Assembly: GCF_000970025.1 (NCBI RefSeq)
Contig: NZ_CP009528.1
Span: forward strand, 3,149,168-3,213,167
From: Methanosarcina barkeri MS
Lineage (GTDB): Archaea > Halobacteriota > Methanosarcinia > Methanosarcinales > Methanosarcinaceae
Length of the DNA stretch: 64,000 nt
Direction of reading: 5' to 3'
Both the position numbers and the translations under genes were made by a program. Numbering within the stretch: the first letter of the stretch is position 1; every line of letters starts with the position of its first letter. Below are positions 29,102 through 57,797 of this stretch, piece after piece. Below the pieces are notes generated by a model. It was not told the origin of the DNA and made no database searches. It worked only from the letters and a program-made list of their open reading frames with translations.

Positions 29102-29147
29102 TTATTGATTAGCAACTGGGTTGGGAACAGATAAAGGGGGCAAATTG

Positions 29148-29501
29148 ATGGAAAGAAAAGCGACAAATAAAATAAAAGATGAGCCTGGAGAGCCAATGAT
29201 AGCTCGATCCAAAATGGACGAAGCGGCTGTAAGTGAATTAGAGGTCAAAGGAATCGAAAATCTCACCCCTACCGAAAAGAAACACCTGCTTTTACAACTT
29301 TCCCGAGATAGGATTAAAGATAGTTCTGCCGGCCCATGGGAAATTATTGATGTCTTCAGGGAAAATTGGAGAACCATCAAAGCTACGTTGGCTCAACCCG
29401 TAGAAATTGAGGTAAGGGATATAGGAAGGGATGCTCTCTTTCGAGTGTCTCTGGATATAACGCAGTTAGAAAGAGAACTCGAAACCCAGGAACTGGAATA
29501 A
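29148..29501 (+). CDS. Hypothetical protein (117 aa) downstream of the TIR-like gene
   Basis: ATG 29148 follows AAAGGGGG with a 7-base spacer. The protein (MERKATNKIKDEPGEPMIAR, TPTEKKHLLLQLSRDRIKDS, WRTIKATLAQPVEIEVRDIG) is soluble, charged and appears to have an alpha/beta end (ALFRVSLDITQLERELE). No family is recognised. Shared ribosome-site sequence and strand link it to the Pro-Glu-rich gene upstream. Confidence 0.6.
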   Translation: MERKATNKIKDEPGEPMIARSKMDEAAVSELEVKGIENLTPTEKKHLLLQLSRDRIKDSSAGPWEIIDVFRENWRTIKATLAQPVEIEVRDIGRDALFRVSLDITQLERELETQELE

Positions 29502-49709: not shown

Positions 49710-52001
49710 TTAAATATAGGAGGGGTTCTCGATTTCTTTAGATTTCCTAATTCTGAGTTCGCCTTTTATAGCTTCGTAGTATTTCATCGTGTCCGAAGTG
49801 ACTGAAGGTCCAGTTTCTGTTATTGCTTTAATGAAGTGTCTCTGCTTAACATTTTTTGCGTGAAGATCCTCACGCAGAGCAAGCCTTCCTGCCTTTTTAC
49901 ATATGGCTGCAATGTCTGCACCTGTATACTGATCAGTCATAGAAACGAGCTTTTCGATATCAATACCCTCTGCAAGCGCCATTTTTTCGGTATGGACTTT
50001 GAAGATCTCCCTGCGAGCTCCCTCATCAGGAATAGGAACAAGAATCAGTTCATCAAAACGTCCTGGTCGGATAAGTGCAGGATCGATAACGTCCGGGCGA
50101 TTGGTTGCACCAATTACCACTACAGCCCTGAGCTCTTCAAGTCCGTCCATTTCGGAGAGAAGCTGATTAAGGATTCTTGCCGTAACCTGAGGCTCACTTA
50201 TAGAAGCCCCGCGAATAGGCGCAAGTGAGTCAAGTTCGTCCAGGAAAATAATAGATGGAGCAACCTGCCTTGCCCGTGTAAAAACCTCAGCTATCCTTTT
50301 TTCGGATTCTCCATACCATTTGGAAAGTAGATCACTTCCCTTGGCTGTGATAAAATTAGCATCCGATTCATGAGCTATCGCCTTTGCAAGCAGAGTCTTT
50401 CCCGTACCCGGAGGGCCATACAGAAGGACCCCTTTAGGAGCTTCAACCCCGATATCTCTGTAAGATTCCGGATTCTTAAGAGGCCATTCTACGACCTCTT
50501 TCAGGAGCCTTTTTACTTCTTCCAGACCGCCGACGTCGTCCCAGCTGACAGTTGGCACTTCGATAAGGATTTCCCTTATTGCTGAAGGCTGGACATCTTT
50601 GAGAGCATTTTCAAAATCTTCTCTTATTACCTGGAGGGAATCCAGAATTTCAGCTGGGATTTCAGGTTCATTAAGATTGATTTTAGGTAAAACCTTCCGT
50701 AAGGCACTCATAGCTGCCTCCCTGCACAGGGCAGCAATATCAGCTCCTACGAATCCGTATGTTATTTGAGCAAAATCCATGAGGTTTACGTCTTCGGCAA
50801 GAGGCATTCCTCTGGTATGGATCTGGAAAATTTCTAACCTTCCATCAGTATCCGGGACTCTAAGTTCAATTTCTCGGTCAAATCTGCCCGGGCGGCGGAG
50901 TGCTACATCCAGGGCTTCGGGACGGTTGGTTGACCCTATAACGATTACATTCTTGCGGGCTTTAAGCCCATCCATAAGGGAGAGAAGTTGAGCAACTACT
51001 CTTCTTTCCACTTCTCCGGTTACCTCAGCTCTTTTAGGGGCAATGGAATCGATCTCATCCAGGAAGATAATTGCAGGAGCATTCTTTTCTGCGTCCTCGA
51101 AAATTTCCCTTATCGCCCTTTCGGATTCGCCGTAATATTTGGACATAATCTCAGGACCATTGATCGAAATAAAGTAGGCATCGGATTCGTTAGCAACTGC
51201 TTTTGCAAGCAGAGTCTTTCCCGTTCCGGGCGGGCCATGGAGCAGTACCCCTTTTGGAGCATCAATTCCTAGCCTGTCAAAAAGCTCAGGGTGCTTCAAA
51301 GGCAATTCTATCATTTCCCTAACTTTCCCAATGGCTTCTTTTAGCCCACCTAGATCTTCATACATAACAGTAGGGATATTCTGTTCAGAGGTTACCTCGG
51401 TCGCTTCAGGCAAAAGCTCAACTTGTGTTAAGTCTGTAATCTTTACTATTCCAGACGGAGAAATAGAAACTACTTGCAATTTTATTTCTCCAAGCCCGAA
51501 AGACGGCCCAAAGCCCTGGTCGAAAAAGTCCTGGAAGAAATCTTCGAACATACCTCCTTTGCCGAAAGTCTCACTTTCCCTTGATTTCTTCAAACTTGTG
51601 GTAGAAATAAAATCCCCTTTTGAAACCGTACGGTTTATGAATACGGCTTTAAGAGTTTCGCTTGGAGCATAGATTTGCATGCCCCTGGATACAGGCGCAA
51701 GAGTTACACTTTTTGCTTCTTTCCAGTCGGCTTTGCAGATATCCACATATTCCCCTACACTGGTTTTTGCATTAATGCGGATAAGCCCATCCATACGTAT
51801 TATCTCAAGTCCTGAATCACTAGGGTACGGGCGTCCGATAAGGGCTGAAGTCGATTTTTCCCCTTTGATTTCCACGACGTCGAAAGGCTTAAGACCCAGT
51901 TTTTCCCGGAAACTTTCGCCTATTCGGACAATGCCTTTTCCAACATCCCGTTGATCGGCTTCTGCAACTTTCAATTTTATCGTTGTCTTACTATCAGTCA
52001 A
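49710..52001 (-). CDS. Cdc48/VCP-type AAA+ ATPase (CdcH)
   Basis: An N domain (double-psi barrel plus 4-beta, about 190 residues) precedes two AAA modules. Each has Walker A ([40 protein letters not shown]), Walker B ([18 protein letters not shown]) and arginine fingers ([19 protein letters not shown]). At 763 residues it is full-length. The hexamer unfolds substrates for the proteasome or other partners. The C-terminus lacks the HbYX tripeptide (ends ENPSYI), though -YI may still be related. It is transcribed alone. Confidence 0.95.
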
Positions 52002-54051: not shown

Positions 54052-54125
54052 TGGGCCCGCTGAGATTCGAACTCAGGATCCCCGCCGTGTAAAGGCGATG
54101 TCATAACCGACTAGACCACGAGCCC
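54052..54125 (-). tRNA. tRNA-Val (anticodon TAC)
   Basis: The acceptor stem is GGGCTCG/CGGGCCC with discriminator A. The anticodon stem TCGCC/GGCGG encloses TTTACAC, anticodon TAC. The T arm is CTGAGTTCGAATCTCAG. CCA is not encoded. Confidence 0.95.
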
Positions 54126-54566: not shown

Positions 54567-54577
54567 ATATATTTATA
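54567..54577 (+). promoter_or_regulatory. TATA box of sRNA candidate A
   Basis: ATATATTTATA with a purine-rich upstream stretch (CGAAGCAAA). Its centre is about 27 bases before the hairpin start, as expected for an archaeal promoter. Confidence 0.55.
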
Positions 54578-54597
54578 GTAGATTAGCGTGAAATAAC

Positions 54598-54682
54598 TTG
54601 TGAGCGGGTCTCTATTTTATATGATAACCCCAACACTCAACACCCCAATTCATACTCCCCAACCCGCTCATCTTATTCTCAT
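54598..54682 (+). ncRNA. sRNA candidate A: 9-bp hairpin with C-rich loop
   Basis: GTGAGCGGGT (54600-54609) pairs with ACCCGCTCA (54662-54670), enclosing a 52-base loop with three CCCCAA motifs (AACCCCAACA, CACCCCAATT, CTCCCCAACC). A pyrimidine-rich tail (TCTTATTCTC) follows. There is no open reading frame. It shares the 5' arm, ATAACCCCAA and the 3' arm with candidate B 410 bases downstream. The structure, a stem presenting unpaired C-rich stretches, resembles RNAs that pair with Shine-Dalgarno regions. Confidence 0.55.
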
Positions 54683-54977
54683 CAAAATAGAAATATATAT
54701 TAATGGAAACGATTCAAAGGCTTTAAATTGTGGGTTCCTATAGTACAATGCTAGAAAATAAATTGAGATATCTGGCCATGAAACTACTCTGGAAACTCAT
54801 TTAGAAAGAAATTTAATAATTAAATGATTAAGAAAAGGAGATTTGGATAGGTTAGACCTTAACTCCATCCAATGGTTATTATAGATTTTTACTTCAGGAA
54901 GTAGAATTTCTAGCTAAAAGAAAAACCCATAAACATCAAGTAAAATTTATAAATACGAGACTATAGAAATGAAAAAC

Positions 54978-54986
54978 TATTTATAA
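54978..54986 (+). promoter_or_regulatory. TATA box of sRNA candidate B
   Basis: TATTTATAA preceded by purine-rich GAAATGAAAAAC. Its centre is about 27 bases before the second hairpin. Confidence 0.55.
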
Positions 54987-55006
54987 GATGAATAAATAGT
55001 CATGTC

Positions 55007-55112
55007 GCGTGAGCGGGTCTTTTTTCCATAGTATAACCCCAAAACAATATCCCCCAACTATTTCCCCCAACTATTCCCCAAACTCTCCAGCCCGCTCACA
55101 AATATTTTTCAG
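55007..55112 (+). ncRNA. sRNA candidate B: paralogue of candidate A
   Basis: GTGAGCGGG (55009-55017) pairs with CCCGCTCAC (55091-55099). The 73-base loop carries four C-rich motifs: ACCCCAAAA, TCCCCCAAC, TCCCCCAAC and TCCCCAAAC. A T-rich tail (ATTTTTCAGTTTATTTT) follows. It has the same arrangement of promoter, stem and loop as candidate A with a longer loop, indicating a tandem duplication that kept the stem and the C-rich motifs while the rest drifted. Confidence 0.55.
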
Positions 55113-55291
55113 TTTATTTTAACTGTTGATAGCAGTTCAGAAATTTTTTTTGCCAATATATACTAACTCGTCTAATTCTGCATATAAACTTCCTTCGTAT
55201 CTATTCCACATGATCTAAAAAATTGATATGATGTACATAGTACAAATTGCAGCAATCAGAAAAATCAATTCGTCTCTTACTTAATAAAAGA

Positions 55292-55469
55292 TAAGAAAAC
55301 TAACAGAAATTAAGAAAACTAACAGAAATTAAGAAAACTAACAGAAATTAAGAAAACTAACAGAAATTAAGAAAACTAACAGAAATTAAGAAAACTAACA
55401 GAAATTAAGAAAACTAACAGAAATTAAGAAAACTAACAGAAATTAAGAAAACTAACAGAAATTAAGAAA
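55292..55469. repeat. 19-bp tandem repeat, about nine copies
   Basis: AAGAAAACTAACAGAAATT is repeated with almost no variation and stops about 20 bases before the end of rfcL. Confidence 0.95.
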
Positions 55470-55487
55470 ATAAATAAGGTCAGAAAA

Positions 55488-57443
55488 TTAGAAGTCGAAA
55501 AGCGTTTTTTGTGTTTTTGACTCAGCTTTTTTAGGAGTTTCACTGGCTTTGACCTCAGATTTTTCAGACTTATCTGAAACTTTTTTGACAATGAGCTCAC
55601 GAGTTATAGGTTCCCTGGATCTGGAAAATTCGAGAGAGATGCTATTTTCTATAGGTTCAGAGCCAGAAAAAGCTTCCTTCTCAAAAGGTTCAGGCAGGGA
55701 TGAAGAATTCTTAACCTTAAGATTATCGTGTTCAGATAAACTGGATGTAAGGCTACCAGGTTTGAGCTCGACCTCATTAAGCCTGGCCTGATTCTGTTCC
55801 GGTATAAGAGTATTGGAAGTAACACTGTCAGGCATAAGGGCATCAGATGTAAGAGCATCAGGTGTAAGGGCATCAGATGTAAGAGTATCAGGTGTAAGAG
55901 AATCAGGTGTAAGGATATCGGAAGTATTATTTTCCGAGTTCGTAGTTTCTGGAGTAATCTCAAGTGAGATATCAAGACCAAAGTTAAGAGTTTTCTGCCC
56001 GCCCTGTGAAGTCCTGGAGTTGGGAACTTCGAGACTCTCGGAATGTTTTCCAGCTTTTTCCTTCGGAGTTTTAATCAAGAAGCTAGAAAGGTCCTCTTTA
56101 CTATTTTCTGAGGAGGCAGGAGCCCTGAAAAACTCAGTTCCATCAGATTCTTTTCCTTCAAGGAGAAGTTCCTGCGCCCTGTCGTAGATTTTCTGCAGCT
56201 TTTTACTAGCTTTTGTGCTCCCCGAGAGATATATCAACTCCTCAAGTTCAAGCCCGAGGCCCGCAGTAATTTCGATCGCGGATTCTTCATTCTTTAACAT
56301 GAGAGAGTAAAGCTCCAGCAGATTATTTCTTGAATAACGCATGGACTCGAAGTTGTGTTCTCCAACTTTAGAAGCTATATTATCCCTGAGGTTTCGTTTC
56401 GAACGTATCTGCCCCATTTTCTTCCAGAGAGAAGGAGACTGATACTTGATAAATCCGGGGTATGGCCGTGTCTTTGAGACTGCAGTTCCGCAGACCATCA
56501 ACATGCTCGCATACCTCCACATCCCATAGTTCTGGCGTTTTTTTACGCGCCCAAGGTAAAGATCGGCCCTTGAGAGATAACCAAAGCCAGTTTTTATATC
56601 CTCAAGATTTCCATCCTTAGATGCATACTGGAAAGGCAGGTTTTCATCTATCCAGTGTACAAGATCTTCAGGGCTTTCATCAAGCCCACGAGATGCTTCC
56701 AAAGCCTTTTTACAGTCCGTGCTCTTAAAGATTCTCTGCATTGCCTTGAAGATGTTTTCTTTTACATCTCTGCCTGAAGTGCTGATATCCTCAACTTCCA
56801 GCGCTTTCCTTCCGGTAGCTGCAGCCTGAAGGTCGTTAATTGCACTTCTTAGATCTCCTCCCGCCCCTTCAGCGATTTTCTGGACTGCATCCGGGCTGCA
56901 TAAAATTTCTTCGCTCTCGCAGACCTTCTTCAAAGCAGGGACCATAGAACGGCTCTGTACGGACCCGAACTTTATTTCCAGACAGAGGTTCCTGATAGTA
57001 GGAGTCAACCCATAAATATCGTTTGCAATCAGCACTATGGGTTGAAGTGTGCTCTTTATAATTCCTGCAATAGCTCGCATTCCACCCCTGTCTGCAGTCC
57101 CGTGAATATTGTCCGCTTCGTCCAGGATAATCAGACGTTTTCCTCCAAAGAGGGTATTCATTGAAGCTGCCGATCCCGCAACCTTTTCAATAACACCTGC
57201 AGTCCTCTGGTCACTTGCATTGAGTTCGATGACTTCCCAGCCCAGATCGCGGGCAAGAGCATGGGCAGTAGAGGTCTTCCCTACTCCTGCAGGTCCATGA
57301 AGGATCACTGCCCTCCTCTCTGGAATGCCTGAAAGCCACTTCTCAGCCCAGGTCCGCAAATCCTGCACCGCCTTCTTGTTCCCTACAATCTCCTTCAGGG
57401 TCTGTGGGCGGTATTTCTCAGCCCATTCAATTGCCAACGTCAT
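55488..57443 (-). CDS. rfcL: Replication factor C large subunit
   Basis: The start [20 protein letters not shown] (ATG 57443) is typical. Walker A is [20 protein letters not shown], Walker B is [13 protein letters not shown], and the sensor region follows. With RfcS it loads the PCNA clamp onto primed DNA using ATP. Beyond the clamp-loader core (about 420 residues) lies a long acidic tail with a degenerate repeat of [10 protein letters not shown]-type units and a C-terminal PCNA-interacting motif QKTLFDF; a second similar motif, [10 protein letters not shown], sits upstream of the repeat. A start 5 codons upstream is possible. It is transcribed alone. Confidence 0.95.
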
Positions 57444-57797
57444 CTTAAACCATACCAATAAAAAAAGAACTCATTATTAACTCTATACATTTTAATCTTT
57501 TAACTATTCAAATGCTTTTGTTCTTACAATCCCCTGCTTTCGATTTTTAAATGACAACGCTAAATTTACACTTTGATATGTGTTAAAGTCTTTTTGCTCT
57601 CATAAAAATAATACCTTCAATCGCCAGAACAAATTTGGGCAGAAAAACGCGTATTCATATTCCCTTTCATCCCGGCTGCAAATATCTTCCTTAATGTTAG
57701 CCCACTAACATTTTCTAATCAATCAAGAATACGAAGAGTACGAAAAAACTCAATCTGACTATATCTTTGAGTAAGGTGAAAATATATCTTTTCTTAC
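57444..57797. other. Divergent promoter region of rfcL
   Basis: About 350 bases without a gene before repeat A copy 3. No conspicuous motif is identified. Confidence 0.4.

Follow-up and report, generated by a model that had tools for sequence, protein, structure and literature searches.

A multi-copy family of predicted structured small RNAs with C-rich, nearly G-free loops in Methanosarcina and its relatives

The window analyzed here, a 64,000-nucleotide stretch of the 4.57-Mb genome of Methanosarcina barkeri MS (G000:C2:3149168-3213167), carries two hairpin elements, copies A and B, between a tRNA-Val gene (54052-54125, minus strand) and the 3′ end of rfcL (55488-57458, minus strand). The latter encodes the large subunit of replication factor C and is transcribed opposite to the two elements, both of which point at its 3′ end. 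The gap between the tRNA gene and rfcL is 1.36 kb long and holds no plausible open reading frame, in line with the gene-free stretch described in the first-pass annotation of this DNA. tRNA-Val(TAC) also adjoins A and B in the two other Methanosarcina genomes that were checked. In each element a 10-bp stem closes an almost G-free, C-rich loop in which CCCCAA motifs occur three times (A) or four times (B), and the 5′ arms of the two copies are spaced 409 nt apart (Table 1).

Table 1. Coordinates in the window of copies A and B and of their parts
Feature	Start	End	Strand	Remarks
Copy A	54600	54671	+	Predicted hairpin ncRNA, 72 nt measured by the stem; orthologues in almost every Methanosarcina genome
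Stem A, 5′ arm GTGAGCGGGT	54600	54609	+	Pairs with 54662-54671; covariation
Stem A, 3′ arm ACCCGCTCAT	54662	54671	+	Folding and covariation
Loop A, U-run (5′ part)	54615	54618	+	Family-wide U-run
Loop A, C-rich G-free part	54628	54661	+	Three C4 tracts; the part ends in ACTCCCCA
TATA-like box of A, AATATATTTATA	54566	54577	+	Centre ~54573, ~27 nt before the stem
Copy B	55009	55099	+	Predicted hairpin ncRNA, 91 nt measured by the stem
Stem B, 5′ arm GTGAGCGGGT	55009	55018	+	Folding and covariation
Stem B, 3′ arm GCCCGCTCAC	55090	55099	+	Folding and covariation
Loop B, U-run (5′ part)	55020	55025	+	Family-wide U-run
Loop B, C-rich G-free part	55037	55089	+	Holds 2.8 copies of TCCCCCAACTATT at 55050-55084; unit number differs by species
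TATA-like box of B, TATTTATA	54978	54985	+	Centre ~54982, ~27 nt before the stem

The sequence agrees with the earlier description of this locus as two elements with a common stem, C-motif loops and a TATA-like box at matching distances upstream. Both elements fold far more stably than their dinucleotide shuffles (z ~ -5.0 for A and ~ -5.7 for B). When the entire window was scanned mechanically for nearly G-free loops with three or more C-tracts, closed by stems of 9 bp or longer, A and B were the only matches; 20 Markov-randomized windows gave none. The loop of A measures 52 nt and that of B 71 nt by the 10-bp arms or 73 nt by the 9-bp arms. The first-pass annotation had read this difference as drift in loop length; the difference is real, but it lies between paralogues, and each orthologue is tightly conserved. 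Orthologues of copy A are 68-76 nt long, and the variation of copy B between species is mostly a matter of how many TCCCCCAACTATT units it has and how long they are. Length differences among orthologues are not multiples of three, and such indels rule out a small coding ORF.

We conclude from sequence comparison that A and B are members of a predicted small-RNA family present in several copies in the Methanosarcina group and its relatives. The simple pattern GAGCGGGT-N10-30-AACCCCAA occurred in 27 of 112 genomes of the family Methanosarcinaceae, with a single match for the reversed control, and the same element is carried by two Methanosarcina records (L043 and L070); a pattern scan of genome contigs returned mostly unrelated short matches. 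A first covariance model, built from 33 copies, matched 147 of the 186 genomes searched in the order (E <= 0.1) and showed almost all complete Methanosarcina genomes to carry a trio, in which A and B are joined by a third copy, C. The covariance-model search across Methanosarcinales that had been proposed for this locus thus found the family order-wide, together with copy C in the host genome itself. With a second model, built from 51 sequences, 87 of 394 genomes of the phylum matched at E <= 0.001; nearly all belong to the same family, order or class, and the three that fall outside the class are probably chance matches. Sequences from additional families within the order retain the whole layout, as do the weak matches in a different family of the class (f6). 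Genomes carry between one and seven copies. By these searches the predicted family spans the order and probably the class.

Members of the family share a fixed 5′-to-3′ layout. A TATA-like box precedes the 5′ arm, which is GTGAGCGGGT or a variant with compensating changes; a U-run comes next, then C-tracts, as a rule two to six of them, a core, the 3′ arm and a slightly T-richer flank. In most members the core abuts the 3′ arm and reads ACCCCCACUCCCC(A/U) or a variant thereof; ACCCCCACUCCCC and the U-run are nearly invariant across the family. A U-run of at least four near the 5′ arm is found in 69 of 69 non-redundant members, the C-rich parts contain 4 G in 1689 bases, and the best TATA-like match falls 24-30 nt before the stem at 51 of the 69 non-redundant loci as compared with 9.2 in shuffles. 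Because the stem hardly varies within Methanosarcina, covariation was sought across genera. Both sides had changed with pairing kept in seven of nine stem pairs (33 cells; 38 diverse sequences), as against 0 of 500 shuffles; slid controls were far lower, and a separate count gave six of ten stem pairs. The compensated variants include ATGGGCAGGT/ACCTGCCCAT, ACGAGCGGGT/ACCCGCTCGT, GCTGACGGGT/ACCCGTCAGC, ATAAGCGGGT/ACCCGCTTAT and TTGCGCGGGT/ACCCGCGCAA, and since both arms have changed in them, pairing itself appears to be what is kept. Selection on the stem, as the first-pass annotation had suggested, is thereby supported. Altogether, deep conservation, covariation and fixed TATA spacing strongly support the prediction, also made at the outset, that A and B are small structured RNA genes with their own promoters.

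The same features bear on two readings that dispense with a free RNA. Hairpins in archaea can sit in untranslated regions, and A and B are intergenic, as a leader, attenuator or terminator of a neighboring gene would be. We nevertheless consider a role in cis very improbable. rfcL runs toward A and B, which point at its 3′ end, while copy C (G000:C2:3640335-3640407, minus strand, 0.4 Mb away) is flanked by hppA, which encodes a membrane pyrophosphatase, and an MFS transporter gene, both of them encoded on the other strand. Most copies have a TATA box of their own, and orientation and separate promoters together argue against a cis-acting leader. An element acting as DNA, whether a cruciform, an i-motif or a G-quadruplex site, could in principle form, since the inverted repeats are nearly perfect and hold three or four C-tracts. 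This is the least probable of the readings considered here, given the strong strand asymmetry, with a same-strand TATA box at a constant distance, the position of the U-run always 5′ of the C-tracts and the occurrence of G-U wobble pairs in the stem.

The family appears to be previously uncatalogued and is a good candidate for inclusion in Rfam as a new family. Searched up to E = 1-2, copies A, B and C and five homologous loci matched none of the Rfam 15 covariance models, and no paper found in the literature searched describes the family, its structure or its reach. About 200 intergenic sRNAs have been reported in M. mazei, of which one in five is also conserved in two further species (PMC5867862, PMC3432209), and single loci of the family may already be among those listed; a study of Methanolobus psychrophilus reports nine conserved cold-induced sRNAs (PMC5378194). 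Masking of ribosome-binding sites (RBSs) is the reported mode of action of the best-known Methanosarcina RNAs, M. mazei sRNA162, sRNA41 and, for glnA2, sRNA154 (PMC3510493, PMC5867862). sRNA162 and sRNA154 act in trans through single-stranded regions, much as we propose below for this family, but a multi-copy C-rich family such as A, B and C is described for neither in those two papers (PMC3510493, PMC5867862).

sRNA41 deserves separate consideration: like A, B and C it is an intergenic Methanosarcina sRNA, and it is reported to mask RBSs in the polycistronic ACDS mRNAs, an activity to which C-rich loops would be suited (PMC5867862). That one of our copies is sRNA41, repressing ACDS by RBS masking, is nonetheless improbable. 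For A and B, the starts of both ACDS operons fall short of a high rank among 486 sampled genes, and for C their rank is only modest; cdhA and cdhC are in the bottom half, and cdh genes are mostly in the middle or bottom, with best single ranks of 29-46 of 486. Thus the ACDS targets of sRNA41 are not favored by these loops, and ACDS Shine-Dalgarno (SD) sequences are mostly GGAGG and not G-runs. Judging by targets, we think it unlikely that A, B or C is sRNA41.

To our knowledge, conservation beyond the genus level has been established for few archaeal regulatory RNAs, and their mode of action is poorly understood. A multi-copy family that covers an order and probably a class, including many methane producers, and that combines a near-invariant single-stranded motif with a covarying stem would offer a clear starting point for experimental tests of RNA-based control in methanogens.

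How might such RNAs act? Whereas structured RNA genes are strongly supported, pairing with G-runs is a plausible function, and we favor it tentatively, at rather less than even confidence. We envision a scenario in which transcription driven by TBP and TFB starts at the stem and yields stable RNAs of roughly 50-100 nt, whose closed stem and absence of G would keep the C-tracts single-stranded. These tracts would capture, in trans, RNAs with runs of four to six G; the most useful targets would be mRNAs with a G-run SD in place of GGAGG, whose masking would repress translation. Messenger RNAs of universal stress proteins (Usp) are the best candidate targets in this analysis, and the U-run is a plausible binding site for SmAP/Lsm proteins. 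With C-tracts that have no G partners within the molecule, the loop would present an exposed C-strand, and the gain and loss of C-tract units in B was likewise counted for this reading. The anti-SD-like sequence CCUCC is present in 3 loops where 18 are expected; its avoidance suggests that GGAGG sites should be spared and G-runs chosen.

The first-pass annotation had proposed that the C-rich loops pair with G-rich RBSs. This is plausible, but real loops paired with start regions no better than shuffled loops, which did equally well or slightly better, and general SD targeting is not favored on these grounds. Unusually G-rich sites had also been noted before several genes of the window; across the window GGGGG before ATG is not enriched, with 6 sites as compared with 9 expected. 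One of the genes singled out as a candidate target, that at 29148 (window 29121-29501), did come first for B when 486 sampled start regions were ranked. About one gene in nine has GGGG in its RBS. Among sampled starts the frequency of GGGGG is highest at the SD position, a peak that is partly built in since the choice of starts favored strong SDs, and conservation of G-run RBSs between orthologues is partial and mixed in small samples of 25-60 pairs. The Cdc48/VAT-type AAA ATPase gene of the window (49710-52001) has an apparent TTG start behind a GGGGGG RBS; in G081 this RBS is GGAGGG, so the G-run is not conserved.

A second reading, nearly as likely as G-run pairing, is that the stem and C-rich single strand have a dedicated protein partner, with which they would form a stable RNP or, acting as a sponge, titrate a regulator that binds C-tracts. 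Multiple binding sites would then be provided by the C-tracts, repeated in variable numbers of units, and ACCCCCACUCCCC and the GCGGG of the stem are conserved far past the needs of pairing. The core, nearly invariant over 13 nt class-wide, shows more conservation than mRNA seeds usually do, which speaks against mRNA pairing, as does the finding that loops are not optimized for start regions. Nor is an antisense partner evident. No conserved, fully complementary site for the loops was found, and full-length copies of CCCCACTCCCC/GGGGAGTGGGG in Methanosarcina genomes lie almost only at copy C, which led us to reject a perfect antisense partner, GGGGAGTGGGG being found mainly at copy C itself. 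The sole site outside copy C in the host genome is G000:C2:1487248-1487258 (L283), and G077, G078 and G104 have one extra site each. A role as an rRNA guide or in rRNA pairing was also discarded: the longest complement is 8 nt, a length equaled by 133 of 200 shuffled cores. On the other hand, no candidate protein was found, protein binding alone leaves the absence of G unexplained, and A and B vary the exact core yet keep the C-tracts. The host has two short LSM genes alongside the universal U-run, an observation that fits RNA pairing and a protein partner alike.

Known systems offer parallels for both readings. RsaE/RoxS and IsrR of the Firmicutes hold unpaired C-rich motifs in a small structured RNA and are thought to pair with G-rich SD sequences. 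The present family shares an unpaired C-rich motif in such an RNA, but differs in having one closing stem with one large loop, an archaeal promoter and several paralogues per genome, and we know of no sequence relation between them. The protein-sponge RNAs CrcZ and CsrB/RsmY expose repeated short motifs in loops and vary in copy number, as this family does; here, however, the motif is another one, the structure is a single hairpin and a protein partner is hypothetical.

Returning to G-run pairing, Usp genes stand out among possible targets. In three Methanosarcina, 15 of 27 single-domain Usp genes have GGGG in the RBS (L395, L397, L399-L401, L403, L415, L417, L420, L423, L424, L427, L432, L436 and L441), as compared with ~12% of 1027 genes (p ~2e-8, a post hoc statistic, three Usp genes having been noticed before testing). 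Outside the discovery genome the count is 9 of 17 (p ~5e-5). Usp starts also have lower duplex energy to all three loops (p 0.0008-0.03), and two Usp RBSs contain GGGGAGU, the exact complement of ACUCCCC. In Methanolobus the GGGG excess is absent (1 of 5). Since the signal was noticed beforehand, the paralogues share ancestry and Methanolobus lacks it, we regard it as a lead. A broader extension, in which a class-wide riboregulator would use its G-free C-tract loop to read a G-run SD code and so separate a stress regulon (Usp and others) from GGAGG genes, is doubtful. Several GGGG RBSs of Usp genes are kept between apparent orthologues.

In G081, the stem of copy A (L202:3994-4066) has changed to GTGAGTGTGT/ACCCACTCAC, in which one pair is compensated and another mismatched; it is possible that copy A is decaying in this species, where B and C are intact. 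In a genome of genus g7, two identical copies lie 209 nt apart (G021:C1:1751436-1751697, L371/L384), the product of a recent tandem duplication that arose separately from the A/B pair. Next to copy B itself, a perfect 19-bp tandem array of TAAGAAAACTAACAGAAAT (9.4 copies, window 55292-55470) separates B from the end of rfcL, and 15/30-bp coding repeats at 55828-55913 give the C-terminal part of the rfcL product a run of S/T-L-T-P/S-D units.
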